Part shown: piece by piece, positions 2,742 through 59,860 of the stretch | Position numbering within the stretch: the first letter of the stretch is position 1 | Layout: every line of letters begins with the position of its first letter | DNA from: Crambe crambe | Taxonomy: Eukaryota > Porifera > Demospongiae > Poecilosclerida > Crambeidae | Direction: 5' to 3' | Assembly: GCA_963924555.1 (NCBI GenBank) | Contig: OZ004584.1 | Coordinates: 8,253,753 to 8,317,752, forward strand | Length of the DNA: 64,000 nucleotides | Made by a program: the position numbers and the translations under genes | Notes under the pieces: generated by a model | What the model saw: only the letters and a program-made list of their open reading frames with translations | Told to the model about the DNA's origin: nothing | Database searches by the model: none

Positions 2742-10887
<8,146 letters not shown>

Positions 10888-16612: not shown

Positions 16613-16715
16613 AATCAGCTCCTGCCACGTGGATTGGCGCCAAAATGGGCGTAGCTAGTACCAGCCACACCCTTTTTAGCATGCAACATTGCAAGCTGAG
16701 TAAGGGCTGAGAAAA
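16613..16715. promoter_or_regulatory. Bidirectional promoter, BBS12 / DUF1349 gene
   Basis: Only 103 bp separate the two divergent start codons. There is no clear TATA box. Transcription start sites must overlap or lie very close. Confidence 0.5.
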
Positions 16716-17399
16716 ATGGCTGAAGAAAAACCATCAAAGAGGACGAAGATGGCGCTCTCTGAGAGTTTTGACTTTACCAACATGAAGACACTGGACTCCA
16801 CCGGCTTAGAATGGAAGAATGAACCAGAGAGCTTCTCTTTAGACGCAGAAGCTGGTCTCCGAATGATCCCAAAGCCTAAAACAGACTTTTGGCGGAGGAC
16901 TTATCAGGATCCTCCTGCTGATAGAGCTTCAGGACACGCCCTTCTTTATGAGGTCCCTGTGGGGGTGCAAGAATGCACAGCCCAGACTGTCTTCACCTTA
17001 AAGCATCAGACGCAGTATGATCAGGCCGGGGTAATGGTATTCATAGATGATCATCACTGGCTTAAGGCAGGGATCGAACTGGAAGGTGGAGTTCCATGCA
17101 TGAGTTGTGTCGTTACTAATGGAGAAAGCGATTGGGGTTATCTGGTTTGGCCCACTGCTGAAGATATCACCATTCGTGTCACCATTCGTCGCTACCCGAG
17201 TGCAGTGTGTGAGTGTAAGGTGGAGTATATGGATGAGAAAGGAGTGTGGTGTTTCCTCCGGGAGAGTCCCATTAGTCTTCCTGGTGAGGGCGGTGAGATC
17301 AAGGTGGGTGTGACCTGTTGTGCCCCAAAGAAGGAGAAGGAGGGGTCAGATGCAGGAATGGAAGCCATCTTCAAGTCACTAGTGATCCAGGGAGAATAA
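16716..17399 (+). CDS. DUF1349 / REE1-like concanavalin-fold protein, intronless
   Basis: A single open reading frame of 227 residues. It shows the DUF1349 pattern of a two-sheet lectin-like fold: FWRRTYQDPPADRASGHALL, then a Q-rich strand (TVFTLKHQTQYDQAGVMVFI), DHHWLKAGIELEGGVPCMS, and VTNGESDW. The family is widespread in bacteria and fungi (yeast REE1, linked to enolase regulation) and occurs patchily in animals. The biochemical role is unknown. No signal peptide is seen, so it is probably cytosolic. The lack of introns in a gene-dense intron-rich region could reflect retroposition or old transfer. A broken partial copy lies at 27.5 kb. Confidence 0.8.
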   Translation: MAEEKPSKRTKMALSESFDFTNMKTLDSTGLEWKNEPESFSLDAEAGLRMIPKPKTDFWRRTYQDPPADRASGHALLYEVPVGVQECTAQTVFTLKHQTQYDQAGVMVFIDDHHWLKAGIELEGGVPCMSCVVTNGESDWGYLVWPTAEDITIRVTIRRYPSAVCECKVEYMDEKGVWCFLRESPISLPGEGGEIKVGVTCCAPKKEKEGSDAGMEAIFKSLVIQGE

Positions 17400-17714: not shown

Positions 17715-20700
17715 TCATCTTCTACGTAAATATCGCACAATGTGTAGGTGTCCATTGGCTTCAGCTAGGTGCAGTGGAGTCAAATTGTATCTGTCCACAA
17801 CATCTGGACTATTTCCATGTTCATTGACCAAGTACTTGATAATGTCAAGATGTCCTTTCATTGCTGCTAAATGGATAGCTCTGTGACCATCTATGTTGGG
17901 TACTTCAGGGATACACTTCAACTTTGAGATGAGAAACTTAATGATTTGTATGTGGCCATTTTCAGCCGCTAAATTGAGGGGAGTGTTGCCAGTGATGTTC
18001 CTCTTCATTGGATCACATTCTTTGTCTTGAGTGAGGTACTGTACAACAGGTAGATGTCCATTACTTGCAGCTAGATGTAATGGAGTCATGTAATTACATT
18101 CATTCAAAGCATTTGGACTACAGCCTCGTTCAACCAGATATTTAATAATGTTAAGATTTCCTTCCAGTGCTGCAACATGAATGGCATTATAACCATTATT
18201 GTTGACTATTTCAGGGCTACACTTTGAGATGAGGGATTTAACGACTTCTAAGTGGCCCTTTGCAGCTGCATGGTTCAGGGGAGTATCACCATCAATATTC
18301 TTGCACACTGGATCACATTTCTTGTCTAGAGTGAGGTAGTCTACAAGAGGTAGATGTCCTTTACCTGCAGCTAGATGTAATGGAGTCTGTTCATATTTAT
18401 TAAGATCATGTGGACTACAGCCACATTCTTCGATCAAGTACTTGATAACCTCAAGATGTCCATTGAGAGCTGCAAAATGGAGATGTCCACCGATAGTTGG
18501 TAAATGGAGTGGAGTTTGATCGTACATGTTCTTGACCATTGGATCACGTTTTTTGTCTAGAGTGAGGTACTGCACAACAGGTAGATGTCCATTACCTGCA
18601 GCTAGATATAATGGAGTCTGTTTATATTTGTCAGGATCATGCGGATTACAGCTATATTTTTTGATCAAGTACTTGATAACCTCAAGATGTCCTTTGAGAG
18701 CTGCTAAATGGAGTGGAGTTTGATTGTACATGTTCTTGACCATTGGATCACATTCCTTATCTTGAGTGAGGTACTGCACAACAGGTAGATGTCCATTAGC
18801 TGCAGCTAGATGTAATGGAGTCTGTTCCTTATTATCCAAAACATCAGGCTTGCATCTTAGTTCTTCAATTAAGTACTTGAGTACTTCAAGATGTCCATCA
18901 AATGCTGCTAAATGAATTACATTATGACCACCTTCATCAACCAAGTACTTCACAATGTCAGTATGTCCATTCATTAGAGCTATAGAAATAGTGTTTAAAC
19001 AGCGTGGATCACAACCTTGTTCATCAACCAAATACTTCACAATATCTAGATATCCTTTCTGAGCTGCTATATACATGTATACAGCATTGTGACCATGTGA
19101 ATTAGCTAGTTTGGGGAAATGTTTCACGATGAACTGAACGATTTTCAGATGGCCAAGAGATACTGCTAAGTGGAACAAATTAATATCATCTATGGTATAA
19201 TTCTCCAGTATTTGATCACATGCTATATCGAGAGAACAGAAGTATTCCACAATAGGTAAAGATCCACCAACAATAGCAGGTACGAAAGTGTGGAAACCGA
19301 TCTCTGTTCTTCCAAAAACATGAAGTAATGAAGAGTACCGAGTCATATTTTGTACTAAAAGTTTAACCACATCAATGTGACCATTCACACAGGCATGATA
19401 TAATGGGATCCGATTAAAATCGTCATAACAAAGAGCTTCAATTTTCTGATCATTCAGTAGATACTTTACTGTGGAAATTTGCCCTGTACCAGCTGCCAGG
19501 TGAAGAGATGTCCAACTATTAAGTCCTGGTTCAGTTGGATTACACCCCAATTCTTCAATAAAGTACTTCACAAGATGCAAATGACCATTAACTACTGCAC
19601 AGTCCAGAGCAGTGTAACCAGATTCATCTTTGTTCATCGGATTGTAGCCACCTATTTCTCTCATATCTTTGACACCTTTCAGATCTCCTTTACTTGCCAT
19701 TTTATGCATGAGAGAATCAATGCTAAATGGTGGCAACTGGACTGCTTTATCAAGCATTTGCAAGAAAGGTTCCTTAAGATCCTTACCAACATGGCTCTAC
19801 ATAATATACGACAGTATCTATCTTCATTACATGAAATTATTAATCCTACCTCCATGTAGTCAGACCTCACACTACTTTGAGCATAGGAAGTGGATATTTC
19901 AGCAGAATTTGCAATAGTGGAATGAATACCAGTGAGAGTACCTATGCCAGAGTCTGAACCTACAAATAGAAAGTATGCTTTAGATGCAGGTTTCTGCAGG
20001 CCCAAATGGCTGGGTACAAGGCTAAAACTAGCTACCACATTAATTAAGGTGGAGATTCATAGCTAATGCTAGCTTTTAATATAGCTATGTCCACGTACCT
20101 GGATCTGACTTTAGTTTCTTCACACGAGGGACCTACATTGTATAGTAATTAACAACATTAGCTATAAGACTATAACATTATAATGTTCACTTACCATTTG
20201 GTGAGTGTTGGATGTTTTAATGTGACTGTAACACTTAACAACTTGAAGCTTTTCAAGTGCTTGTTCTTGCTCTTTGGACAGAGGGAAAATGGACTTCTGG
20301 ACATAATGCGGCACTAGATAAACTAGTTTGATGCTTCCACCTGATATGGAGTAGAGACGCAACACTCCAGTTATCGAAATACCAAAAATCTCACAGAGGT
20401 TTTTAGTCAGCAGTTTTAGATGGCTCAAAGTGGAGTCTTTGAATACACGGTCTAAAGTGATGACAATTTTAGCCTGGCCGGTATCAGATCCAATTTTAGA
20501 TGGGCACTTGAAGAGCCTACGTTTGGCATACTCTTGAAATGCTTTCTCATATTTCTTCAACTGTTCTTTGTCATCATCAGTGCCAAGACATAGAATAAGT
20601 TGTTTCAGGATCTGGTAGCTGAAGAAAGATGAATACATCTTCACTAGTGACAGTGCTTCATGAATGTCTGTCGCTTTCCTTAATGTTTCATACTCTTCTG

Positions 20701-22320
20701 CAAATACTATTTCATTGCTTTTATCACGTGCATACACTGGATCAAAAGCTTCAAATCCCAGCAAATATGAGGCTAGCTTTTTGACCGGTATGTCTCTTCT
20801 CTCCAATGAGTGTTGGAATCCAGTCAACAGTTGTTCATATTTAGAGACAATGGCCATTGAATCTGCTCTTATCTTTGGCTTCATTTTTTCATATTTTTCC
20901 TTGGAAAGGCCACATTCTGATGGAGTGAAGGAGTGAATACTTGCGATATCTTCTTCCATTTCAAATAAAGGTTCGATACCTGGAGTGGCTGCAACCTCTT
21001 CTCGTTTTTCACTGACACTGCATGCTTGATTACTTTCTACTTCATCCTCTTCAGTTTCTATCTCATGTTCATAAGCTATGGTATAGAATAATCTCTTGTT
21101 TATAGTCACCACAGCTTCAGCCAGCTTCCTCCAACTAGGACGTCCAAACCTCTCATCATCATAATTAAGACGAAGCCACTCATTAATCATTTCAGCAAAA
21201 CAATCACCACAAGACAGAGGGTTATCAGTTTTGATTGTTTCCAAGGTATCATAAGGTATCCCTAATTGGATTCCTATTTGTTTCCATCGGGCTTCGACAG
21301 ACTTCAAAGCAAGTATGATATCTTTACAATCGCCTTCAGCTGAACAAAAAAAAATAAAAAATTATGGCTAACATAGTAGCTATAATGTGATATACGATTA
21401 CATCCCATTGCTACAGTTTATACTGTGTATATAAGTTGTGATATTGTACTGCGATGCATTATATCTGCGCCATGGTATTGAATCTTTATATCTGCCCCAG
21501 GTAGCTACAGAAAGTGCTAAATCTCAGTGGGCGATAGACAACTAACATGATTGGACAGTTCGTCCTAGATATCAGAGTAAACAATGAAATGGCAGTGAAA
21601 ACAACTGGTTAGAGTGAAAGCAATAGATTGCTAGAGTGAAAACTACAACGCTGGCTGGGATGAAAAGATATGTTAATTATTACTTCATAGGTAGTCATTT
21701 GAACTTACTTATTGCTGGCTAGTTATTCATTAACTCACTAAGTTCTTTATCTGAAATAGTGGAGAGAACCTTTTTGGCTCTATCATCATCTCCTACTAAA
21801 TATTAAATAATAATTATTTGCACTGCAGCTAGCTATATTGCTTACTTCCATATGGTCCAGGATTTAATTCCACATCTCCTGCCAGCAAGAGCAGTAGAAA
21901 AGACAACCAGCAAGAGAAATGTGCCTTGAGGATATTAAACAGGTTGAAGATCCAATTCGTACTATCAGTTGGAACGTTTCTAAGCCTCGGCATTTCAGCT
22001 GAAGACTTCACCAAATCAGGTAAATCACTGTAAACTTGAGATGGTTTATGATAAGCCTTCACCCTTGGACGGCAAAGGGGTGGGGTTAGGTGTGACCCTC
22101 TCTCCCTCCTTCTCCTCCTCCCCCTTCCCCAGAAGGAGTGGATGGCACAGAGGAGGAGCACGAAGCCAAAGACAGCCAGTCCTGATTTAGGGAGGGACAT
22201 GGTCCTCTCCATCTGTAGACTTGTGGTGAGGGGACGTCTCATCTCCCACTGAACCTGCTTCCACAAATAGCGACCAACAAGTCTCCCATGTGAGACCAAA
22301 GCTCGAGGTAGGTGTGGCAT
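17715..22320 (-). CDS. Gene A: 2A leader / Death domain / ankyrin protein, intact
   Basis: Model complement(join(17715..19796, 19850..19959, 20099..20132, 20195..21339, 21739..21792, 21846..22320)); phases close, 1299 residues. Residues 1-158: a hydrophobic segment (SGLAVFGFVLLLCAIHSFWG), an Arg cluster (GRGRRRRRERG), then a second hydrophobic stretch running into LLLLLAGDVELNPGP, a complete 2A signal with skipping predicted after G155. About 177-275: a Death domain (SVEARWKQIGIQLGIPYDTL, SWRKLAEAV). About 300-558: a conserved companion domain (KKLASYLLGFEAFDPVYARD, ECPS-type RRLFKCPSKIGSDTG, LVYLVPHYVQKSIFPLS). 570-606: a linker with DSGIGT. 607-1299: about twenty ankyrin repeats. The family recalls invertebrate Death/ankyrin innate-immunity proteins, and the function is unproven. 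The sixth-exon acceptor is TAGTAG (NAGNAG). Confidence 0.85.
21853..21876 (-). other. 2A ribosome-skipping signal DVELNPGP, gene A
   Basis: Translates as G-DVELNPGP, an exact match to the D[VI]ExNPGP 2A consensus. It lies immediately after LSFLLLLLA and just before the exon end. Skipping would release a 155-residue leader and a Pro-initiated 1144-residue Death/ankyrin protein. Confidence 0.9.
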
Positions 22321-22344
22321 AGCCTAATAGCTTAATAGGTCTAG

Positions 22345-22690
22345 CAATAACTATAGACAAAAGCCTAAAAGCTTACAGCTAATATAATAGGTTAGTAATA
22401 ATAGCTGGTGTAGCTATAGTTACTGAGTTACTGACTGACAGCTATCACTTCACTTCAGGAATCCCAAAAGATTATTTCCAGCTATAGCTAAGATGATAAC
22501 AAAAAAATGAAGCAGCTAACTGTATGTCACAGCACACCTCATTGCTCTCTGACTGCCCCACCCCTCAGAAAACCAAATTAGGAGAAGGTTGTAATGATTT
22601 CATTATTCATAACTGCATGAATACCATGAGAGCTACTTTTGTGGTTAGCTAAATTTTCAAGGGAAGGGGGTGGGGTTAACATAAATATAG
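22345..22690. repeat. Upstream block of the 2A genes (copy 1 of 5)
   Basis: Sequence 5' of gene A containing TGTCACAGCACACCTCATTG and CTGACTGCCCCACCCCTCAG. Related blocks occur upstream of B (about 26960-27240) and C (about 33665-34020), and as orphans at about 39940-40240 and 48470-48790. It probably includes the promoter region of the family. No TATA box is obvious. Confidence 0.75.
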
Positions 22691-25143
22691 TTACCAACTC
22701 AAGTGGTAGCACTGTCTCGAACATAAATATTGCACGATGGGTAGATGTCCATTAGCTTCAGCTAGCTGCATTGGAGTTAAATTGTATCTGTCGATTACAC
22801 TTGGACTACTTCCATATTCATCGACCAAGTACTTGAAAATATTGAGATGTCCTTTCATTGCTGTTAAATGGATAGCACTGCGACCACCCTTGTTGAGTAT
22901 TTCAGGTGTACATTTCAACTTTAAGATGAGAAACTTAACAATTTGTAGGTGGCCATTTTTAACTGCTAAATTGAGGGGAGTGTTGCCATTGCTCTCCTCA
23001 TCGGATCACATTCTTTTTGAGTGAGGTACTCCACAACAGGTAAATGCCCATTCTTGGCTGCTAGGTGTAATGGAGTCCATTCAATTATGTCAGAATCATG
23101 TGGACTACAGCCACATTCTTTGACTAAATACTTGATAACCTCAAGATGTCCATCGAGAGCTGCTAAATGGAGTGGAGTACGGTTGAAATAGTTTGTAATA
23201 TTAAGACTACATCCTTGTTCACCAACCAAGAACTTGATAGCATCAAGATGACCCTTCATTGCTGCTATGTGAATTGCACTGTGACCATTATTTGTTAGTG
23301 TCTCAGGGTCACATTTTATCTTTAAGATAAGAAATCTAATAACGTCTATTTTGCCACATTCAGTTGCAAGATGAAGAGGTGTTTCGTCATTTATGTTCTT
23401 GACCATTGGATCACATTTTTTGTTTAGAATGAGGTACTGGATGACAGGTAAATGTCCATTGATTGCAGCTAGATGTAATGGAGTTAGCTACTTTAGCTTC
23501 ATCCAAAACATCAGGCTTATGTCTTAGCTCTTCAATTATATACTTGATCACATCAAGATGTCCATTGAATGCTGCTAAATGAATTGCGAGAGAACTCTTC
23601 AAATTTGGACCACATCCTTGCTCATTTACCAAGTACCTGACAATGTCAGTATGTCCATTCATTACTGCTATAGAAATTGTGTTATCACCAAATCGATCAA
23701 CTACTTCAGGAGAACATTTCATATTAGAGATGAAAAATTTAATGGCATGTTTGTGGCCATAATTAGCTGCTATGTGGAGGGGAGTTCTGCCATCTATGTC
23801 CTTACACAGAGGATCACACTGTTTCTTCAGAGTTAGATACATTATGACTGGCAACCAATTATCAGCAGCTGCAAGATGAAGAGGAATTCGTTTATCTTTA
23901 TCCAAACAGCATGGATCACATCCTTGTTCATCAACCAAGTATTTCACGATATCAAGATATCCTTTCTGAGCTGCCATATGTACAGCATTGTGACCACATG
24001 AATTAGTTAGTTTGGGGGAATGCTTCAAGTTTAAGATGAAGAACTGAACGATTTTCGGATGGCCAAAAAATACTGCAAAGTGGAATAAATTATCATCCTT
24101 GGTGTAATTCTTAAGTATTTGCTATATTGAGAGAACAGAAGTATTCTACAATTGATAAAGATCCACCAAAAATAGCAGGTACGAAAGTGTGTAAACCAAT
24201 CTCTGTTCTTCCAAAAGCATCCAGTAATGAAGAGTACTGAGTCATGTTTTGTACTAAAAGTTTAACCACATCGATGTGACCATTCTTACAGGCATGACAT
24301 AATGGGGTCCGATCCAAATCATCATAACAGAGAGCTTCAATACTCCGATCATCCAGTAGATATTTTACTATGGAAAGTTGCCCTGTACCAGCTGCAAAGT
24401 GAAGAGATGTCCAACTATTAAGTCCTGGTTCAGTTGGATTACACCCCAATTCTTCAATAAAGTACTTCACCAGATGCAAATGACCATTAACTACTGCACA
24501 GTCCAGAGCAGTGTAACCAGATTCATCTTTGTTCATCGGATTGTAGCCACCTTTTTCTATCATATCTTCGACACCTTTTAGAGCTCCCTCACTTGCCATC
24601 GCATGCATGAGAGAGTCAGTGCTAAATGGTGGCAATTGGACTGCTTTATCAACCATTTGCAAGAAAGGTTCCTCAAAATCCCTTCCAACATGGCCCTACA
24701 TAATATAATGTTTATCTGCAATATTCATCCATGCAATTAATCCTACCTTGATGTAGTCTGACTTCACACTTTGAGCACAAGAAGTGGAAATTTCAGCAGA
24801 ATTTGCATCAGTGTCACTGTGAGTACCTATACCAGAGTCTGAGCCTACAATTACAATAGAGTTGCAAAGTATGTTTTAGCACACTAGACAACTATCTCAT
24901 GCAGTAGCTAACATTCATGTGAAACACCATAAGTGCAGATAATGCTAATATTGCCGTCTATGTACCTGGATCTGACTTTAGTTTCTTCACAATAGCAACC
25001 TATGAAGGAAGATACTTTAAGCAGGAGGTGGGGGGAACTTTAATATTATGGATTTCTGTTTTGCTTCTTATGAACTATAATATCAACATCAATTATTGTA
25101 TAGGTTCTGAGTCAATTAGTTAAAAGCGTACCAATTTTTAAGG

Positions 25144-25165
25144 CCCCCCCCCCCCCCCCCCCCCC
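25144..25165. repeat. Poly-C homopolymer, 22 bp
   Basis: An uninterrupted C run in an intron of pseudogene B. Its length is prone to sequencing error. Confidence 0.9.
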
Positions 25166-26480
25166 GCTAATATGATTCAATTACCAATTATTCACTTACC
25201 ATTTGGTGAGTGTTGGATGTTTTTATGTGACTGTAACACTTAACAACTTGAAGCCTTTCAAGTGCTTGTTCTTGCTCTTTGGAAAGAGGGAAAATGGACT
25301 TCTGGACAAAATGTGGTACTAGATAAACGAGTTTGATGCTTCCATCTGATATGGAATAGAAATGCAACACTCCAGTTATCGAAATGCCAAAAATCTCACA
25401 GAGGTTTTAGTCACCAGTATTAGATGGCTCAAAGTGGAGTCTTTGAATGCACAGTCTAAAGTGATGAAGATTTTAGCTTGGCCAGTATCAGATCCAAATT
25501 TAGATGGACATTTGAAGAGCCTACGTTTGGCATACTCTTGAAATGCTTTCTCATATTTCTTCAGTTCTTCCCTGTCATCTCTTGTGCCAAGTTTGAGAAT
25601 GAGTTGCTTTAATATCTGATAGCTGAAAAAGGACGAATATTTTTTTATCAGTGAAAGTGCTTCATCAATTTTTCTTCAACATTTCATAATCTTCTGCAAA
25701 TAATATCTGATTATCATCATGTGCATACACTGGATCAAATGCTTTAAATCCCTGCAAATGTGTGGCCAACTTCTTGACTGGAATACCTCTTATTTCCAAC
25801 AAGTGCTGAAATTTAGTTAATAATAATTCGTATTTAACAATGATGGCCATCGAATCTGCTCTTATTTTGTGGTTCAATTTCCTATATTTGGACTCAGAGA
25901 AGCCACATTCTGATAAAGTCAAGGAATGAATACTCAGGACTTCATCATCCATTTCAAATACTGGTTTAGAAGTGGCAGTAGCTTCTTCTTCATGTTTCTG
26001 ATCAATACTGCATGCTTGATTACTTGCTCCTCCAGTCTCTACTGGATGCTCATCAGCTATAGAATGTGATAGCCTCTTATTGAAAGTAGCCACAGTTTCT
26101 GCCAGCTTCCTCCAACTGGGATGTCCAAATTCTTGTGTGTCATAATTAAGACGAGACCACTCTTTGATCATCTCAGAAAGACGATCACAACATAGAGGGT
26201 AATGGAGTCCAAGGTAGCAAAGGTTATCCCTAACTGGATTCCAATTTGTTTCCACTGGGCTTCGACAGACTTCAGAGCAAGTATGACATCTCTATAATCT
26301 CCTTCAGCTGAATAAAAATAAGAACCATAACTTAATAATTATTTTTGCTTAGCTGCATGCCAAAGTTGAAACTCACTAAGCTCTTTATCTGAAATAGTAA
26401 GTAAAGACTTTTTAATTTTATCATCATCTAAAAATCAGTTATAGATTCCAGTCAAGTGATCAACTGAACTTACTTCCATA

Positions 26481-26504
26481 TGGCCCAGGATTTAATTCCA
26501 CATC
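26481..26504 (-). other. 2A signal retained in pseudogene B
   Basis: The octapeptide DVELNPGP is still encoded (CCT GGG CCA at its end) although the reading frame upstream is broken. Confidence 0.8.
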
Positions 26505-27477
26505 TCCTGCCAGTAAGAGCAGTAGAAAAGACAACCAGCAAGAGAAATGTGCCTTGAGGATATTAAATAAGTTGAAGATCCAATTCGTACTATCAGTTGG
26601 AACATTTCTAAGTCTCAGCATTTCAGCTGAAGACTTCACCAAATCAGGTAAATCACTGTGAACTTGAGATGGTTTATGATAAGCCTTCACTCCTGGACGG
26701 CAAAGGGATGGGGTTAGGTGTGACCCTCTCTCCCTCCTCCTTCTACCCCTTCCCCAGAAGGAGTGGATGGCACAGAGGAGGCACAAAGCCAAAGATAGCC
26801 AGTCCTGATTGAGGGAGGGACATGGTCCTCTCCATCTGTAGACTGGTGGTGAGGGGACGTCTCATCTCCCACTGAACCTGCTTCCACCAGTAGCGACTAA
26901 CAAGTCTCCCATGTGAGACCAAAGCTCAAGGCAGGTGGGGCATAGTGCCTGATACGTATGTAAATAGGTCTAGCAATAACTATAGACAAAAGGCTAAAAG
27001 CTTAACTCTACCTATAGTTAATACCTATAGGTTAGTAATAATAGCTGATGTTACTATAGTTACTGACTAGTAGCTGGAATCCTAAAAGATAGATATGATA
27101 AAAATGAAGCAGCTAGATTGTGTGTCACAGCACAGCACACCTCATTGCTCTCTGACTGCACCACCCCCTTAAAAATTACTTCCAAATTAGGAAAAGGTTA
27201 GTAATGTTTTTGTTATTCATAATCACAGTGGGAGTATTCTGAGTTCAAAGATCATAGCACATAAAACTGTACCAGCATTACACCAGCACAGCATTACCAT
27301 AAGCATTAGCTACTTACACCATCAGTTACCAGTACTAACTAGTAACTACCAACATTACCCTACTAAAATAGTAATTAATTCATGATTAGCTGCATAATTA
27401 GTTTGTTTGCCACATAATCCATTGAGACCCTTAGCTATATCTATTATAACCCTGCCCTCGGCCCAATCCAACATTCA

Positions 27478-27712
27478 CATGACAATGGTCAAAGTTTGTT
27501 GCTACCCAAGAGCAGTGTGTGAGTGTAAGGTGGAGTATGTGGACGAGAAAGGGGTGTGGTGTTTTCTAAGGAATCCCATTGTGCAGTCTTCCCAGTGAGG
27601 GTGGTGAGATCAAGATGGGTGTGACCTGTTGTGCCCCAAAGAAGGAGAAGGAGGGGTCGGATGTTGGGATGAAGGCAATCTACAAGTCAATTATGATCCA
27701 GGGAGAATAATA
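27478..27712 (+). pseudogene. Broken 3' fragment of the DUF1349 gene
   Basis: Matches the last third of the gene at 16716-17399: CYPRAVCECKVEYVDEKGVW parallels RYPSAVCECKVEYMDEKGVW, and the ending CCAGGGAGAATAA is shared along with about 100 bp of 3' flank. The 5' two thirds are absent and indels break the frame after the tryptophan. Its position just 3' of an ankyrin gene repeats the order at 16.7-17.7 kb, so it is a scar of segmental duplication. Confidence 0.88.
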
Positions 27713-27923
27713 TAATGATCTAACTTGCAACTCAAAACTTATACTGTTCTAGAAGATTAAATTTGCAAATAAATAATAATGGTAATGACACAGTATAATG
27801 TTCAGTTTGTATGAAAGTAAGAGGATGTCGATAAAAATAATTTGCCAATGGCATTACAATAGCTAATGGGGGAAATGTGTTGAATGAAGGTATAGCTAGC
27901 TAGCGATTATACGCAGGCTTGGA

Positions 27924-30900
27924 CTATCTTCTATGTAAATATTGCACAATATGTAGGTGTCCATTGGCTTCAGCTAGGTGCAGTGGAGTCAAATTGTATC
28001 TGTCCACAACATCTGGACTATTTCCATGTTCATTGACCAAGTACTTGATAATGTCAAGATGTCCTTTCATTGCTGCTAAATGGATAGCTCTGCGACCATT
28101 TATGTTGGGTACTTCAGGGGTACACTTCAACTTTGAGATGAGAAACTTAATGATTTGTATGTGGCCATTTTCAGCAGCTAAATTGAGGGGAGCATCACCA
28201 TTGATGTCCCTCTTCATTGCATCACATTCCTTGTCTTGAGTGAGGTACTGTACAACAGGTAGATGTCCATTACTTGCAGCTAGATGCAATGGAGTCTGTT
28301 CATATTTGTCAGGATCATGTGGACTACAGCCACATTCTTCGATTAAGTACTTGATAACCTCAAGATGTCCACTGAGAGCTGCTAAATGGAGTGGAGTTTG
28401 ATTGTACATATTCTTGACCATTGGATCACATTTTTTGTCTTGAGTGAGGTACTGCACAACAGGTAGATGTCCATTACTTGAAGCTAGATGTAATGGAGTC
28501 ATGTAATTATGTTCATTCAAAGCATTTGGACTGCAGCCTTGTTCAACCAGATATTTTACAATGTTAAGATTTCCTTTCATTGCTGCAACATGAATGGCAT
28601 TATAACCATTATTGTTGACTATCTCAGGGCTAGACTTTAAGATGAGGAATTTAATGACTTCTAAGTGGCCCATTGCAGCTGCATGGTTCAGGGGAGTATC
28701 ACCATCGAGATCCCTGCATACTGGATCACATTTTTTGTCTAGAGTGAGGTACTCCACTACAGGTAAGTGTCCATTACTGGCAGCTAGATGTAATGGAGTC
28801 TGTTCCTCTTTACAATCATGTGGACTACAGCCACATTCTTCGATCAAGTACTTGATAACCTCAAGATGTCCACTGAGAGCTGCTAAATGGAGTGGAGTTT
28901 GATTGTACATGTCATTGACCATTGGGTCACATCTTTTGTCTAGAGTGAGGTACTGCACAGCAGGTAGATGTCCATTACTTGCAGCTAGATGCAATGGAGT
29001 CTGTTCATATTTGTCAGGATCATGTGGACTACAGCCACATTCTTTGATCAAGTACTTGATAACCTCAAGATGTCCATTGAGAGCTGCTAAATGGAGTGGA
29101 GTCTGATTGTCATCATCCTGCACCATCTGATCACATTCTCTGTGTTGAGTGAGGTACTGCACAACAGGTAGATGTCCATTACCTGCAGCTAGATGTAATG
29201 GAGTCCTGTAATTATGTTCATTCAAAGCATTTGGACTACAGCCTTGTTCAACCAGATATTTTACAATGTTAAGATGTCCTTTCATTGCTGCAGTATGAAT
29301 GGCATTATAATCACCATCGTTGACTATCTCAGGGCTACACTTTGAGATGAAAAATTTAACAACTTCTAAGTGGCCCTTTGCAGCTGCATAGTACAGGGGA
29401 GTATCACCATTAATATCCTTGCACACTGGATCACATTTTTTGTCTAGAGTGAGGTACTCCACTACAGGTAAGTGTCCATTACTTGCAGCTACATGTAATG
29501 GAGTCACGTAATAACGTTCATTCAAAGTTTGTGGACTACAGCCTTGTTCAACCAGATATTTGATAATGTTAAGATTTCCTTTCATTGCTGCAGCATGAAT
29601 GGCATTATAACCATTATTGTTGACTATTTCAGGGCTACACTTTGAGATGAGGAATTTAACGACTTCTAAGTGTCCCATTGCAGCTGCATGGTTCAGGGGA
29701 GTATCACCATCAATATCCTTACATGCTTGATCACATTTTTTGTCTAGAGTGAGGTACTCCACTACAGGTAAGTGTCCATTACCGGCAGCTAGATGTAATG
29801 GATTCTGTTCCTCTTTACGATCATGTGGACTACAGCCACATTCTTCGATCAAGTACTTTATAACCTCAAGATGTCCACTGAGAGCTGCTAAATGGAGTGG
29901 AGTTTGATTGTACATGTCATTGACCATTGGGTCACATCTTTTATCTTGAGTGAGGTACTGCACAACAGGTAGATGTCCATTATTTGCAGCTAGATGTAAT
30001 TGAGTCAATTTATTTTTATCCAAAACATCAGGCTTGCATCTTAATTCTTCAATTAAATACTTGAGTACATCAAGATGTCCATGAAGTGCTGCTAAATGAA
30101 TTACATTATGACCACCTTCAAAACTCTTCAAATTTGGATCACATCGTTGCTCATCAACCAAATACCTGACAATGTCAGTATGTCCATTCATTACTGCTAT
30201 AGAAATTAAGTTATCACCAAACTGATCAACTACTTCAGGAGAACATTTCATGTTAGAGATAAAAAATTTAATGGCATGTTTGTGGCCATATTTAGCTGCA
30301 TAGTGGAGGGGAGTTCTATCATTTATATCCTTGCACAGAGGATCACACTGTTTCTTCAGAGTTAGGTACATTATAACTGCTAATTGATTATTAGCAGCTG
30401 CAAGATGAAGAGGAGTTCGTTTATTTTTATCCAAACAGCACGGATCACATCCTTGTTCATCAACCAAATACTTCACAATATCAAGATATCCTTTCTGAGC
30501 TGCTATATACATGTATACAGCATTATGACCATGTGAATTAGTTAGTTTGGGGGAATGCTTCAAGTTTAAATTATCATCCTTGTCCAGTATTTGATCACAT
30601 TCTATATTGAGAGAACAGAAGTATTCCACAATAGGTAAAGATCCACCAACAATTGCAGGTACGAAAGTGTGTAAACCAATCTCTGTTCTTCCAATAGCAT
30701 CCGGTAATGAAGAGTATTGAGTCATATTTTGTACTAAAAGTTTAACCACATTGATGTGACCATTCCTACAGGCATGATATAATGGGGTGTAATCTAAATC
30801 ATCATAACAGAGAGCTTCAATACTCCGATCATCCAGTAGATACTTTACTATGGAAAGTTGCCCTGTACCAGCTGCAAAGTGAAGAGATGTCCAACTATTA

Positions 30901-33632
30901 AGTCCTGGCTCAGTTGGATTACACCCCAATTCTTCAATAAAGTACTTCACAAGATGCAAATGACCATTAACTACTGCACAGTCCAGAGCAGTGTAACCGG
31001 ATTCATCTTTGTTCATCGGATTGTAGCCACCTTTTTCTATCATATCTTTAACACCTTTCAGATCTCCCTTACTCGCCATTGCATGCATGAGAGAGTCAAT
31101 GCTAAATGGTGGCAACTGGACTGCTTTATCAAGCATTTGCAAGAAAGGTTCCTCAAGATCCTTACCAACATGGCTCTACATAAAATATACATGACAGTAT
31201 TTATCTTCATTACGTGAAATTGTTAATCCTACCTCCATGTAGTCAGACCTCACACTACTCTGAGCATAGGAAGTGGATATTTCGGCAGAATTTGCAATAG
31301 TGGAATGAATACCAGTGAGAGTGCCTATGCCAGAGTCTGAACCTACACAACAGAATGTATGCTCTAGCATGCAGGTATCTGCAGGCCCACATGACAAGCT
31401 AAAACTAGCTACCACATTTAATTAAGGCCACTATTGGTTGATTACAAGTTTCTCATCTCCCCCACCTGCATTAGTTTACTCTACCGACAGGATTTGGCCA
31501 TTATACGTAATTGAAAATTCTATAATTATACTGCATCACTTCTGACTGTATCAACTACTTAATGACATGATGGTTTATGCTATGTTGCCCGCCCGCATCA
31601 GTCACATCTGATGAGAGACTGATCGACAAATAGTGGCCTAAGGTGGAGATTTGCTAGCTTTTAATATAGCTATGTCCACGTACCTGGATCTGACTTTAGT
31701 TTCTTCACACGAGGGACCTACATTGTATAGTAATTAACAACATTAGCTACAAGACTATAACATTATAATGTTCACTTACCATTTGGTGAGTGTTGGATGT
31801 TTTTACGTGACTGTAACACTTAACTTGAAGCTTTTCAAGTGCTTGTTCTTGCTCTTTGGAAAGAGGGAAAATGGACTTCTGGACAAAACGTGGCACTAGA
31901 TAAACGAGTTTAATGCTTCCACCTGATATGGAGTAGAGACGCAACACTCCAGTTATCGAAATACCGAAAATCTCACAGAGGTTTTTAGTCAGCAGTATTA
32001 GATGGCTCAAAGTGGAGTCTTTGAATGCACGGTCTAAAGTAATGACAATCCTAGCCTGGCCGGTATCGGATCCAATTTTTGATGGGCATTTGAAGAGCCT
32101 ACGCTTGGCATACTCTTGAAATGCTTTCTCATACTTCTTAAACTGTTCTTTGTCATCATCGGTGCCAAGACATAGAATAAGTTGTTCCAGGATCTGGTAG
32201 CTGAAGAAAGATGAATACTTCTTTACTAGTGACAGTGCTTCATGAATATTTGTTGTTTCCCTCAATGTCTCGTACTCTTCTGCAAATACTATTTCATTGC
32301 TTTTATCGCGTGCATACACTGGATCAAAAGCTTCAAATCCCAGCAAATGTGACACTAGCTCTTTGACTGATATATCTCTTCTCTTCAATGAGTGTTGGAA
32401 TCCAGTCAACAATTGTTCATACTTAGTGATGATGTCCATTGAATCTGCTCTTATCTTTGGCTTCATTTTTTCATATTTTTCCTTGGAAAGGCCACATTCT
32501 GATGGAGTCAAGGAGTGAATACTTGCGATATCTTCTTCCTCTTCAAATAAAGGTTTGATACTTGGAGTGGCTGCAGCCTCTTGTTTCTCACTGACACTGC
32601 ATGCTTCAGTACTTTCTCCTTTGTCATTTTCCGTTTCTATCTTATGTTCATCAGCTATAGTATGGAACAGTCTCATGTTGATAGTCACCACAGCTTCTGC
32701 CAACTTCCTCCAACTAGGACGCCCAAACTTCTTTACACTGTAATTAAGATGAAGCCATTCTTTTACCATTTCAGCAAGTCTATCAGCACAATACTGAGAG
32801 TTATTGGCTGTGATGGAGTCCAAGGTATCATCAGATATTCCTAATAGGATTCCAATTTGTTTCCACCGGGCTTCGACAGATTTCAGAGCAAGTATAACAT
32901 CTCTACGATCCCCTTCAGCTGAACCAAAAACAACAACAACAACAAATACAATTAGAAGTTATAATGGTTACAGAGGTAGCTAGCTATAAATTTTTCTAAT
33001 GTAGGCATAGCTAAATTTCCTGATTGCTGGATAATTTCATGAACTCACTAAGCTCTTCATCTGAAATAGTAAGTAGAATCTTTTTGACTTCATCATCATC
33101 TATTTATCAAAAGTTAATAATAATTTTATCGTAGCTACGTAGCTACATTCTTACGCTTACTTCCATATGGTCCAGGATTTAATTCCACATCTCCTGCCAG
33201 CAAGAGCAGTAGAAAAGACAACCAGCAAGAGAACTGTGCCTTGAGGATATTAAACAAGTCAAAGATCCAATTTGCACTATCAGTTGGAACATTTCTAAGC
33301 CTCGGCATTGCAGCTGAAGACTTCACCGAATCAGGTAAATCACTGTGAACTTGAGATGGTTTATGATAAGCTTTCACTCCTGGACGGCAAAGGGGTGGGG
33401 TTAGGTGTGACCCTCTCTCCCTCCTCCTTCTCCCCCTTCCCCAGAAGGAGTGGATGGCATAGAGGAAGAGCACAAAGCCAAAGACAGCCAGTCCTGATTG
33501 AGGGAGGGACATGGTCCTCTCCATCTGCAGACTGGTGGTGAGGGGACGTCTCATCTCCCACTGAACCTGCTTCCACAAATAGCGACCAACAAGTCTCCCA
33601 TGTGAGACCAAAGCTTGAGGTAGGTGTGGCAT
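27924..33632 (-). CDS. Gene C: 2A leader / Death domain / long ankyrin protein, intact
   Basis: Model complement(join(27924..31175, 31233..31342, 31684..31717, 31780..32918, 33049..33099, 33161..33632)); phases close, 1685 residues. It has the same order as gene A: a hydrophobic leader with 2A (skipping after G154), a short acidic exon (DDEVKKILLTISDEEL), a Death domain (SVEARWKQIGILLGIS), the companion domain, the DSGIGT linker, then 1083 residues holding about thirty ankyrin repeats in a single exon. Many repeats are nearly identical blocks (MYNQTPLHLAALSGHLEV occurs three times), which points to recent expansion by unequal exchange. This long array accounts for the size difference from gene A. 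Probably an intracellular sensor or scaffold. No enzyme domain is present. Confidence 0.86.
33168..33191 (-). other. 2A ribosome-skipping signal DVELNPGP, gene C
   Basis: Identical octapeptide and the same hydrophobic context (WLSFLLLLLAG) as gene A, at residues 148-155 of the model. Confidence 0.9.
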
Positions 33633-38340: not shown

Positions 38341-38560
38341 ACTATAACCCTTCACTCTTGGATGGGGTTAGGTGTGACCCTCTCTCCCTTCTCCTTCTCC
38401 CCCTTCCCCAGAAGGAGTGGATGGCATAGAGAAGGAGCACAAAACCAAAGACAGCCAGTCATGATTGAGGAGGGACATGGTGTATATAGACGGATATCTC
38501 ATACTGAACCTGCCTAGGTAGAGACCATGTGAGACCAAAGCTCAAGGTAGGCGGAGCATA
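38341..38560 (-). pseudogene. Relic of a 2A-family leader exon
   Basis: On the minus strand this matches the 5' two thirds of the leader exon of genes A-D: the TCAAGCTTTGGTCTC region, the GACTGGCTGTCTTTGGTTTTG segment coding the first hydrophobic helix, and the GGGGAAGGGGGAGAAGGAG Arg/Gly stretch. The 2A end and all later exons are missing and the frame is broken. Confidence 0.8.
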
Positions 38561-46809: not shown

Positions 46810-47280
46810 AATCTCTACTGGATGCTCGTCAGCTATAAAATGAGATAACATAGTAGCCACAGTTTCTGCCAGCTTCCTCCAACTGGGATGTCTGAATTTT
46901 TTTTGCATCATAATTAGCTAGCTAAGACAATCACAACATAGCTAGAAGGTTATTGGCACCAATAGAGTCCAGGATAGCAAAGATTATCCCAAGCTGGATA
47001 GGTAAATCACTGTGAACTTCACTATGAACTTGAAGATAAGCCTTCACTCTTGGACGGGGTTAGGTGTGACCCTCTCTCCCTCCTCTTTCTCCCCCTTCCC
47101 CAGAAGGAGTGGATGGCATATAGAGGAGGAGCACAAAATCAAAGACAGCCAGTCATGATTGAGGGAGGGACATAGTGTATATAGATGAATATCTTATACT
47201 GAACCTGCCTAGTTAGAGACCAACAAGTCTCCCATGTGAGACCAAAGCTCAAGGTATAGACGGAGCATATGGTCCTGCCT
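46810..47280 (-). pseudogene. Relic of a 2A-family gene: Death exon fused to leader exon
   Basis: Minus strand. The 46810-46995 part matches the Death-domain exon of genes B and D (CTGGCAGAAACTGTGGCTAC, CCCAGTTGGAGGAAGCTG region). 47036-47280 matches the leader exon up to the first helix. The introns and the 2A end between them are deleted and the frame is broken. It is more complete than the 38.3 kb relic. Confidence 0.8.
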
Positions 47281-57010: not shown

Positions 57011-59860
57011 TTAAACATGGCCCTTGTACATTTCAAGGATTTTATCAATAGTGTCCGGTTTTAAGAGTTTCAGTCGGTCATCTATTGCTTTGATCATTGA
57101 TTGAAAATACCCTTTCTCGACACATAAATATTTAGCCTTTTCTGCATATTCTCTGGCCTTTGGGGAATTCCCCTTCCACCTATAAAGGTCACTTGTAGCA
57201 ATGTGGTGGATCACCATATGTCTGTGAATCTCGTGTACGCTGTCTAAAGGTGCAGCTTTAAGGTGCTGCTCAGCAATAGAAACATCTTCTTTGGTAGGGA
57301 CATAATTTATTGTTGAAGGAGAGTTTACGTTCATCGTTCCATTCAAGATAAACAGAGCTTTATAAACATGACCGTTGAAAATCATAAGCCTTTCCCATCC
57401 AACTCCATAATACGAATCAGCAATAGCACGATCAAAAAGTTCTAAAATTCTTCGCTTAACCTCTGCAGTTATATTGCCACTGTTCACACCGATCATATTG
57501 CGGGCATCATTGAAAAATACACAGCTTGTGAGGTGTGATGGTGCAGCCTCTAAGCAAATAGATCTAGAGTGATGGATGCACTCCAGCGCTTTCCCCTTAT
57601 TTCCTTGCAACGAATGCACTTGAGATAATGCCATCATGATGAGAGCCTCAAGGAGGAAACCATTATGACTCTCCATTGATTGGGATCTTTGAAAAATTTC
57701 TTCTAGTTCTGTAATGGCTTGTGGCGACAATGACCTCTCTGTAGCTTTAGTAACCGACATGTACAGTTTCATATCAAGTGCAACATCACTACCTGATGTA
57801 ATCATTGAGGCTATCATGTTCGACTCACTTGTTTTACCTTCATAAAACATTTTATTGTATACTGTCATGACGCTGTTAAATCTCGGAGAGGCAAGAGCCC
57901 CTTCATATTTCAGTAAAGGTGGAGCTTTAAATGCATTCCTCTCAACTGTCTTTAAAGTAGAGATAAACCCTGTATAATGCTCCACTGCATAACCTAGACA
58001 TTGTATACCCTCTTCGTCAATCACAGTGTCAACATTGAGTGTCACTATGTAATTGGCATCAGCCTCATAAAAACACATATAAAATGTCACATGACCATTT
58101 GCAGTATACCCACTCCTTTTACTCCTCCAGATTTTGTATGTAGGTTCTTTTGAGGTGTGATTAGTGGATGACCGATTGTCTCCCACAACACTGACTACTG
58201 AAAGTGATAGAAAACAGACTACTTGCCCATGGGATGGTGTGCGGTCACCACAAAGAGCTACTATACATTTCAGTGGTGTTCCAGTGGATGCATCTAGAAG
58301 TGACACTGCCAGGGTAAGCTTTTCATCATTTCCATTCGGCTTCGTCTCTGAACTAATGGCCTTAATCCTTGCACAGTGCACAGGAACATGGACTTGTAAC
58401 TTTGATGGTAAGAGCATTATGGTTTGAGTTTCTTTCTCTACCGTAGAGGATGCTGAAGGTGTTTTGGAGATGTCTAGAGAAGCTAAGTCTTGAGCGTTTG
58501 ATTTTTTGCTTTCAATACCTCCACCTGTGATATATGTACATATAAGTCTGTGAAATACATTCAGTATAGGTATGTGCACAAAGCTTTTTCTTACTAATAG
58601 ACAATTGATCTACATCAATGAAAAGATAATTACTAATTATAATACAATATAATCAGGAGTACAATACATTCACCCTCATTAGTATTTGCGTGCTATAAGG
58701 TGTGAAGCTTGGCTTCCCTTTTCTAAAGCTTTTTTTCCTGTAGGTAGGCATTTTAGGTAGCTATTACCTACCTATGCCACATTCATGCAGTAGCTCTTAA
58801 TGAATACTCCGGACATAATTATCCCTCCATTTCCGGTTTGGGCTTTTGTTTTGGTAAGTAGCTAGCAGTCTATTTTCTTCATGCTGTTTCTGACATGCTT
58901 GATTACTTACTTGCTCCTCCAGTCTCTTCTGGATGCTCATCAGCTATAGAACGTGATAGCCTCTTATCCAAAGTAGCCACAGCTTCTGCCAGCTTCCTCC
59001 AACTGGGAAGTCCGAATTCTTGTGTGTCATAATTAAGACGAGACCACTCTTTGATGATCTCAGAAAGACGATCACAGCATAGAGGGTAATTGGCAGCAAT
59101 GGAGTCCAAGGTAGCAAAGGTTATCCCTAACTGGATTCCAATTTGTTTCCACTGGGCTTCGACAGTCTTCAGCGCAAGTATGACTTTACTATAATCACTT
59201 TCAGCTGAATAAAATCCAAAAGCTAGTAGTCAAGATTAATCCATTTGTTTAGCTGATAATAAACTCACCAAGCTCTTTGTCTGAAATAGTAAGCAAAAGC
59301 TTTTTGATTTCATCATCATCTATGAATATGATAAATCATACATCAAGTTCTAGTGAAGTACTAGATAGCTAACTATGCTTACTTCCATATGGTCCAGGGT
59401 TTAATTCCACATCTCCTGCCAGCAAGAGCAATAGAAAAGATAACCAGCCAGAAAAATGTGCCTTGAGGACGTCATTGAAGAGCCAGTTTGTACAATCATT
59501 TTTAAGCCTTGATATTTCAGCCGAGGACTTTGTCACATCAAGTGAACTGCTGTGTGGTTTAGAATATAGCTTATGATAAGCCTTCACTCTTTGAGGTGGG
59601 GTTAGGTGTTGGCCTCTTTCTCTCCTCCTCCTTCTCCCCCTTCCCCAGAAGGAGTGGATGGCATAAAGGAGGAGCACAAAGCCAAAGACAGTCAGTCCTG
59701 ATTGAGGGAGGGACATGGTCCTCTCCATCTGCAAACTGGTGGTGAGGGGACGTCTCATCTCCCACTGAACCTGCTTCCACAAGTAGCGACTAACAAGTCT
59801 CCCAAGTGAGACCAAAGTTCGAGATCTTTGTGACATGATCGCTATACTATCGATAAACAA
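57011..59860 (-). CDS. Gene D: 2A leader / Death domain / TPR-like C-terminus
   Basis: Model complement(join(57011..58524, 58911..59204, 59269..59319, 59383..59860)); phases close, 778 residues. The leader exon resembles A-C (two hydrophobic segments, Arg cluster, LLLLLAGDVELNPGP). It is followed by the short acidic exon and a Death-domain exon (TVEAQWKQIGIQLGITFATL, SWRKLAEAVATLDK). The ~230-residue companion domain, DSG linker and ankyrins are absent. The last exon (about 504 codons) starts with a beta-rich part and continues as a helical TPR-like solenoid (LLEALIMMALSQVHSLQGNK, SDLYRWKGNSPKAREYAEKA). Skipping would free a cytosolic Death-TPR protein. The start may instead be the Met eight codons on (MSQRS). 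Confidence 0.82.
59390..59413 (-). other. 2A ribosome-skipping signal DVELNPGP, gene D
   Basis: Identical octapeptide and hydrophobic lead-in although the rest of the leader has diverged (deletions after the Arg cluster), suggesting that the 2A end is under constraint. Confidence 0.9.

Follow-up and report, generated by a model that had tools for sequence, protein, structure and literature searches.

The window analysed here, that is the whole stretch of 64,000 nucleotides from the sponge Crambe crambe, holds four loci at which the octapeptide DVELNPGP, with the core D(V/I)ExNPGP of StopGo/2A peptides, is encoded on the minus strand, starting at window positions 21876 (gene A), 26504 (pseudogene B), 33191 (gene C) and 59413 (gene D). 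The first-pass annotation had placed this motif at the close of the leader exon in A, C and pseudogene B, within 17715..33632; this holds, and gene D (59.8–57.0 kb), which lies beyond that interval, is a fourth case. At all four loci, ...FLLLLLAG directly precedes DVELNPGP and a phase-1 donor, GTAAG[CT], sits 7 nt past it. The predicted parts of these genes are as follows, in window coordinates.

33161..33632, minus strand: gene C exon 1, a 154-aa leader ending NPG, then P-Y-G, with a phase 1 end
33444..33494, minus strand: gene C hydrophobic segment 1 (GLAVFGFVLFLYAIHSF), then RGRRRRERG; Kyte-Doolittle 1.94 over 17 residues
33168..33272, minus strand: gene C hydrophobic segment 2 and 2A (NWIFDLF...LLLLLAGDVELNPGP)
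33168..33191, minus strand: gene C 2A octapeptide DVELNPGP
33049..33099, minus strand: gene C micro-exon, 51 nt, phase 1-1, (N)DDEVKKILLTISDEEL
31780..32918, minus strand: gene C exon 3, with Death domain, helical stretch and RRM-like TRADD-N-type domain
31684..31717, minus strand: gene C exon 4, 34 nt
31233..31342, minus strand: gene C exon 5, 110 nt
27924..31175, minus strand: gene C exon 6, with ankyrin repeats and stop codon
22966..26943, minus strand: pseudogene B, its reading frame interrupted in the leader, the Death/middle region and the ankyrin part; octapeptide intact at 26481–26504
21846..22320, minus strand: gene A exon 1, 2A leader, octapeptide at 21853–21876
21739..21789, minus strand: gene A micro-exon, 51 nt, phase 1-1
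20195..21339, minus strand: gene A exon 3, with Death and TRADD-N-type domains
20099..20132, minus strand: gene A exon 4
19850..19959, minus strand: gene A exon 5
17715..19796, minus strand: gene A exon 6, with ankyrin repeats
59383..59836, minus strand: gene D exon 1, 2A leader, octapeptide at 59390–59413
59269..59319, minus strand: gene D micro-exon
58911..59204, minus strand: gene D Death exon (Pfam 18.5 bits, below cut-off)
57011..58524, minus strand: gene D last exon, a weakly TPR-like ORF

Splicing, leader exon and skipping context

Joined at GT-AG introns, the predicted exons of genes A and C form unbroken open frames of 1298 and 1685 aa with the micro-exon (1281 and 1668 aa without it). 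Those of gene D also join in an open frame, with a last-exon acceptor picked by eye out of nine that keep the frame open. Under predicted splicing, the frame is thus open through the 2A site into the downstream protein. The earlier claim that the 2A exon lies in frame with a Death/ankyrin protein is borne out by the open joins in A and C, but it had overlooked both a conserved 51-nt micro-exon of phase 1-1 that separates the 2A exon from the Death exon (A, C and D) and a TRADD-N-like domain between Death and ankyrin. Gene D has the leader, micro-exon and Death exon, and a TPR-like ORF where ankyrin would be expected. In pseudogene B, matches to the leader and the Death/middle region fall into several fragments, with shifts of frame and stop codons, and the ankyrin part is split over three ORFs.

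Each of the nine related leaders read (A–D, L012 and L014–L017) has a phase-1 donor past its octapeptide. Among these nine, L014 and L017 gave no match to the micro-exon, and a Death acceptor within 1.5 kb was seen only in A–D; for two leaders on C16, the next Death match lies 3.6–4.0 kb downstream. More broadly, 31 of the 43 loci read carry a GTRAG donor within 30 nt past the octapeptide (background 4.8%), in phase 1 in 31 cases out of 31. Nine further loci show an AAAG/GTAT donor, a motif chosen after viewing the loci, also in phase 1.

Two hydrophobic segments were found in the leader, instead of the one described at first. Of 25 leaders scanned, 19 have an above-threshold segment directly before the 2A. 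This segment ends 9 residues ahead of the end of NPG in A, C, D, L012, L014 and L016, but not in L017. The 2A therefore lies within an N-terminal hydrophobic segment, as do the sea-urchin 2A signals, with a putative targeting role. Against Pfam, the leader gave no match at 0.01, and a second search returned only matches below the cut-off.

Among five leaders on C6, pN/pS of the octapeptide is 0.000 (pS 0.41), and between these and three leaders on C16 it is 0.060 (pS 0.76), whereas the same comparisons give nearly neutral values for the loop that joins the two hydrophobic segments (0.80 and 0.88, respectively). Just two residue changes occur in the octapeptide: I replaces V at position 2, and S replaces L at the free x. 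By these ratios, the octapeptide is conserved at the protein level while its synonymous sites change.

All 35 distinct contexts in the loci read end in (A/S/C)G and have Leu at p7, which places them in the L-rich class of 2As. Within this class, the motif 6 representative was active in vitro, and the L7A mutant of F2A falls to 34% activity (PMC12846837). By analogy with this measured activity, ribosome skipping is very probable for the contexts read, all 35 of which fall in the class. FMDV-type StopGo/2A sequences of the L-rich class share the same D(V/I)ExNPGP and an L-rich hexapeptide ending (A/S/C)G (PMC12846837); they serve RNA virus polyproteins, whereas those of C. crambe sit in chromosomal animal genes, a cellular use described in the same paper as never or only rarely found.

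Downstream domains

The domain following the 2A combines a six-helix fold with a match to the Death profile. Whole window exons scored 19.6 and 17.3 bits against the Pfam Death cut-off of 22.6; trimmed, gene C reached 23.8 bits and gene D 18.5. A profile made from nine post-2A exons, a selected set chosen by eye from ORFs downstream of 2As, matches the Death domains of FADD, Fas, RIPK1 and ankyrin. Among these exons, L025 and L041, when searched singly, have no Pfam match, and L030 has one below the cut-off. Searched alone by sequence against the PDB, the Death domain of gene C returned two poor matches, neither a Death domain.

The middle domain has the RRM-like beta-alpha-beta-beta-alpha-beta fold of TRADD-N, together with a tiny residue followed by Ser/Cys in the beta2-beta3 turn: GG then S at residues 332–334, between strands 324–331 and 334–342, and GC at this turn in four distant copies (L057, L058, L068 and L074). 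Searches of this domain by sequence against the PDB gave nothing in one case and four poor matches in the other; neither a solved TRADD-N nor its profile was among the listed sequence and structure matches, where the absence of TRADD counts neither way. Pfam gave no match to NACHT, the domain of the sea-urchin NLRs, in the large exons of A and C or in the ORF of D.

The order Death, TRADD-N-like, ankyrin is already known from another sponge, Amphimedon (Kaur et al. 2021, PMC8195603). There, a large, lineage-specific expansion likewise combines N-terminal Death-like domain(s), TRADD-N and a variable C-terminus, ankyrin being among the commonest. The main text of that account contains none of the three terms looked for, namely skipping, NPGP and signal peptide.

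2A motifs across the genome

The 2A codon pattern has 208 matches in the 143-Mb genome, with about 0.2 expected at 40% G+C and none for the reversed pattern. We placed 195 of these sites (194 from listed matches plus locus L015, which was read), and 43 loci were read over 1.5 kb on each side. At least 55 of the 195 sites are followed within 1 kb by a Death/TRADD-N-type match on the same strand, with none upstream and none on the opposite strand among the matches listed; shifted controls gave a mean of 3.9 and a highest value of 9 in 200 rounds. The genome-specific Death queries came from exons known to follow 2As, so that the count of 55 is biased toward those families; the upstream, opposite-strand and shifted controls used the same lists. 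Among the matches listed, 131 of the 195 sites have no Death/TRADD-N match within 3 kb, and an upstream match is also present at 2 sites at 3 kb and at 8 sites at 6 kb. The Pfam Death profile (best 150 of 965 candidates) was too blunt a test, with 4 of 194 sites within 1.5 kb downstream against 0 upstream, and 5 and 5 at 12 kb. At the level of genomic sequence, the 2A is associated with Death exons genome-wide.

The sites fall in 41 clusters, located before Death, in few cases before NACHT, and in one array before Ig domains. NACHT matches (best 103 of 232 candidates) occur within 6 kb downstream at 4 of 194 2A sites and at none upstream, and Ig domains follow the 2A in seven of the nine loci of the C1 array, within the DNA read. 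The arrangement extends beyond a single tandem Death/ankyrin family.

In the C5 set, a helicase fragment was seen after the 2A in two of nine loci.

A wider proposal is that StopGo is a general exon-shuffled module, spread over some 200 sites and about 41 clusters in genes of Death, NACHT and Ig type, yielding two proteins per mRNA, with the released leader acting as a functional membrane partner of the receptor and not as a signal to be thrown away; we offer this tentatively, as a possibility that we would not bet on.

Proposed fate of the products and competing explanations

The reading that we consider likely is that these are host immune-type genes with a StopGo/2A leader exon, from which the leader would be released and a separate, mainly cytosolic Death/TRADD-N/ankyrin protein produced. 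Each mRNA would encode a leader some 154 aa long; of its two hydrophobic segments, the second would double as the L-rich 2A context. The ribosome would let the leader go at DVELNPG/P and resume at Pro, and the leader-free protein would be expected mainly in the cytosol. The cytosol is where Death domains act and where modules of the Death, TRADD-N and ankyrin kinds typically reside. Skipping and its efficiency are here extrapolated from published work on other 2As; the leader may stay in the membrane, and a minority fusion may enter the secretory pathway.

The weakest step is the membrane-tethered fusion first proposed for failed skipping, which appears doubtful. The basic stretch after segment 1 suggests that the loop is cytosolic, so that the part of the fusion past segment 2 would face the lumen, and in the sea-urchin reporter assay the non-skipping form entered the secretory pathway (PMC4981915). 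As a whole, the first interpretation is partly supported: the sequence bears out a spliceable in-frame 2A leader, a conserved octapeptide and a context class of measured activity. The tethered fusion is doubtful, and more than one family carries the arrangement.

It is unlikely, though worth weighing, that the 2A works but segment 1 docks the ribosome at the ER first, the downstream protein then entering the lumen or being secreted. Segment 1 ends 85–96 residues before NPG in six of the seven window-family leaders scanned (77 in L017), and Ig domains, which follow the 2A exon in the C1 array, are usually extracellular. In work of de Felipe and Ryan from 2004, a downstream product was reportedly translocated after an upstream signal. 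Against such docking stand the typically cytosolic nature of Death, TRADD-N and ankyrin, and the sea-urchin assay, in which the skipping form yielded a cytosolic product, although the signal there is the 2A itself (PMC4981915).

We hold it to be very unlikely that the poly-Leu/DVELNPGP stretch acts as an ordinary signal peptide or as a membrane anchor, its 2A likeness unused, on a membrane-bound Death/ankyrin receptor. Two hydrophobic segments would suit such a protein, sponges have been suggested to possess transmembrane NLRs (PMC12909245), and SignalP called signal-peptidase cleavage near the 2A in the sea-urchin case (PMC4981915). However, the 2A keeps its residues as synonymous sites vary, with changes only at positions free in known 2As, and a signal peptide needs neither this conservation nor the (A/S/C)G end and p7 Leu found in every distinct context read.

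There is little to be said for the 2A exons being remnants of non-LTR retrotransposons or of viruses, which we judge highly improbable: some non-LTR elements do carry 2As (PMC4981915) and RVT_1 matches abound in the C. crambe genome, but no 2A site of 194 lies within 1.5 kb of the 143 placed RVT_1 matches, one within 3 kb and four within 6 kb (best 150 of 801, weak for absence, 7 of the 150 on small contigs being left out of the distance count), and in the comparison of the leader with viral contigs one stretch fitted a pattern and none was confirmed. A retrotransposon or virus as present identity was dropped on these distances and this search; the module may be anciently derived from such an element. 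Equally improbable is a leader made alone from unspliced message, with Death/ankyrin translated from another start, since the in-frame stop met 18–30 nt past the octapeptide on reading through exon 1 in A–D is set against a phase-1 donor in all nine related leaders, which in A, C and D agrees in phase with the micro-exon and the Death exon.

For the favoured reading of a released leader and a separate Death/TRADD-N/ankyrin protein, the closest precedent is the N-terminal 2As of Strongylocentrotus purpuratus NLRs (Roulston et al. 2016, PMC4981915), which share the N-terminal position, a Death-domain innate-immune family and the hydrophobic context, and for which dual targeting was shown in reporter cells. 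The sea-urchin 2A is 26 aa long, is itself the signal and sits on NACHT-LRR proteins, whereas C. crambe has a leader of about 154 aa with an earlier second hydrophobic segment, a conserved core and its own phase-1 exon before Death-TRADD-N-ankyrin. Aside from Rao et al. 2025 (doi 10.1016/j.celrep.2025.115822, cited in PMC12846837), by its title a survey of eukaryotic and viral 2As in which the arrangement may already be listed, the literature searched gave no account of 2As in sponge Death/ankyrin genes.

If active, 208 motifs in one genome, many right before Death exons, would alter the view of cellular 2As, and some sponge proteins predicted to be membrane-bound receptors (NLRs, PMC12909245) may in fact be split at translation. 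The loci also offer naturally occurring cellular 2As for measuring how efficient skipping is and where the products are targeted.

2A genes and leader copies of the window

Four copies of the DVELNPGP octapeptide, a predicted ribosome-skipping (StopGo) signal, were found in the window, all on the minus strand. The features of this region are as follows:

6516–7079 and 8911–9426: long (GA/TC)n microsatellites giving spurious long ORFs, the first adjoining ankyrin-like coding sequence
16704–17399, plus strand: ORF with a DUF1349 match (134.5 bits), adjoining gene A on the opposite strand
21876, minus strand: octapeptide of gene A
26504, minus strand: octapeptide of pseudogene B
33191, minus strand: octapeptide of gene C
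38357–38527 and 46994–47263, minus strand: decayed leader-exon copies with stop codons, between C and D
59413, minus strand: octapeptide of gene D

The first-pass annotation had proposed genes A and C and pseudogene B, all three of which are present; it had missed D, which lies outside its interval. In all four loci, WLSFLLLLLAG directly precedes the octapeptide and a splice donor starts 7 nt past it. Six predicted exons, with GT-AG introns, join into an uninterrupted 1685 aa in gene C and 1298 aa in gene A, so that predicted splicing places the 2A exon in frame with the Death/ankyrin exons, as had been claimed. Gene D is likewise predicted to be open across leader, micro-exon, Death exon and last exon, the acceptor of the latter having been picked by eye among nine that leave the frame open; the TPR match in this last exon is weak (E 0.012). 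The pseudogene status of B was borne out by fragmented leader and Death/middle matches with frame changes and stops, and by an ankyrin part split over three ORFs, despite which its octapeptide is intact. The decayed leader copies between C and D point to birth-and-death turnover of this array.

In A–D, the sequence separating the 2A and Death exons contains a 51-nt stretch preceded by AG and followed by GTGAGT, which is, judging from these predicted splice sites, an exon overlooked by the first-pass annotation. As this micro-exon is in phase 1 at both ends, the frame would be kept whether it is included or skipped. Of nine related loci, seven carry it (A, B, C, D, L012 and L016 at 51 nt, L015 at 48 nt), its peptide resembling (N)DD..KK.L.TISDKEL; it was not found within 1.5 kb downstream in L014 and L017. 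Only A–D among these nine loci showed a Death acceptor within 1.5 kb; for the leaders at 2067458 and 2126311 of contig C16, the next same-strand Death match lies 4.0 and 3.6 kb downstream, respectively.

Leader architecture and selection

In the window family, the leader (the protein part upstream of the predicted skip site) contains, in order, hydrophobic segment 1 (approx. residues 47–63 of gene C), RGRRRRERG, a loop and hydrophobic segment 2, which is the 2A context itself.

pN/pS along eight leaders of contigs C6 and C16, summed over pairs, the broken B being left out
Region; within C6; C6 versus C16
First 16 residues; 1.47; 0.53
Core RYLWKQ...HSFWGR; 0.14; 0.10
Loop; 0.80; 0.88
Segment 2; 0.31; 0.43
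Octapeptide (pS 0.41, 0.76); 0.000; 0.060

These values indicate that the octapeptide is under protein-level selection and the loop hardly so. The 50-codon core (33435–33584 in gene C, also found in the leaders of A, D, L012 and L014–L017) is nearly invariant even at synonymous sites (pS 0.12 within C6, 0.22 to C16), and the first 16 codons are also low in pS, less clearly (0.11 and 0.34); pS is 0.41–0.76 further along this exon, in the loop and the 2A part. The low pS of the 5' part is suspected to reflect gene conversion or else a constraint or function at the nucleotide level. Of 25 leaders scanned across the genome, 19 have a hydrophobic segment directly upstream of the 2A that exceeds the threshold; a membrane leader is thus common, not universal by this measure. 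At several loci (e.g. L001, L004, L023, L076, L078) the 2A ORF has no Met, so an earlier exon must supply the start codon.

A phase-1 exon and its genomic distribution

Forty-three 2A loci were read genome-wide with 1.5 kb on each side. A GTRAG donor occurs within 30 nt past the octapeptide in 31 of them (background rate: 4.8%), always in phase 1. Nine loci of contig C5 carry AAAG/GTAT, a motif chosen after viewing them, 25–37 nt past the octapeptide (phase 1 in 9/9); L001 and L003 have GC where their array mates show a phase-1 GT, and L032 has GGTCAGT instead. Leaders sharing this phase show no clear common sequence by eye. Such a single phase across dissimilar leaders is what would be expected had a phase-1 leader exon been shuffled; common descent with fast divergence may instead lie behind it.

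The D(V/I/M)(E/D)xNPGP codon pattern matches 208 times in the 143-Mb genome, with approximately 0.2 matches predicted from base composition and none for the reversed pattern (DVELNPGP alone: 44 versus 0). Among the matches listed, positions were known for 194 2A sites, forming 41 clusters on 13 contigs (250-kb rule); with L015, 195 were tested. Among the Death/TRADD-N-type matches listed, from searches partly seeded with exons already known to follow 2As, one lies on the same strand within 1, 1.5, 3 and 6 kb downstream of 55, 57, 64 and 70 sites, respectively, versus 0, 0, 2 and 8 upstream and none at any distance on the opposite strand. Shifting the sites by 5–60 kb (200 rounds) gave a mean of 3.9 and a maximum of 9 within 1 kb. 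Among the 131 sites without a listed match within 3 kb, C1:4423311, C1:6589007 and C3:8138980 have Death exons above the Pfam cut-off, and C1:5262006 has one by a home-made profile only. A listed NACHT match lies within 6 kb downstream of 4/194 sites (upstream: 0), and none of the 194 lies within 1.5 kb of the 143 placed reverse transcriptase matches listed.

In the nine-member array of contig C1 (3.55–3.99 Mb; L001–L008, L023), Ig-like sequence in place of a Death domain follows the 2A exon within 1.5 kb in seven loci (not found in L004 and L007), L023 having two stretches with Pfam Ig_3 at 29.7 and 30.8 bits (cut-off 30). In L001, L004 and L023, the ORF just past the 2A exon resembles, by eye, a second signal peptide. 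The nine C5 loci (L029, L033–L035, L037–L039, L042, L043) have a distinct leader type, MSSCSGSVLFFRFALIVSLL... in several members; a DEAD/RecQ helicase-like fragment lies downstream in L033 (22.9 bits, below the cut-off of 26) and L035.

Probable skipping and proposed product targeting

Sea-urchin NLRs already provide an example of animal immune genes with N-terminal 2As (PMC4981915). As far as the literature was searched, the presence of such 2As on Death-TRADD-N-ankyrin genes is new, although the eukaryotic-2A survey of Rao et al. 2025 may overlap; so are, within that literature, the long two-segment leader with its conserved core, and the phase-1 2A exon module, micro-exon and scale.

Leu at p7 and a final (A/S/C)G are shared by all 35 distinct 2A contexts read. 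PMC12846837 gives the same ending for the L-rich class, reports the motif 6 representative as active in reticulocyte lysate, and states that L7A in F2A reduced activity to 34%. For a sea-urchin NLR 2A, PMC4981915 gives approximately 80% skipping by the authors' estimate, with a cytosolic product in cells from the skipping form and a non-skipping mutant going mainly to the Golgi. By analogy, skipping would very likely occur in this 2A-Death family.

The cytosolic Death/ankyrin product initially proposed is the simplest reading. The membrane-tethered fusion proposed upon skip failure seems doubtful, since the basic residues following segment 1 point to a loop on the cytosolic side, and segment 2 would then carry the downstream part into the lumen. 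Among the seven window-family leaders that were scanned, segment 1 ends 85–96 residues before NPG in six and 77 residues before it in L017. As segment 1 emerges well before the skip, the ribosome may already sit at the ER when skipping occurs, unlike in the sea-urchin case.
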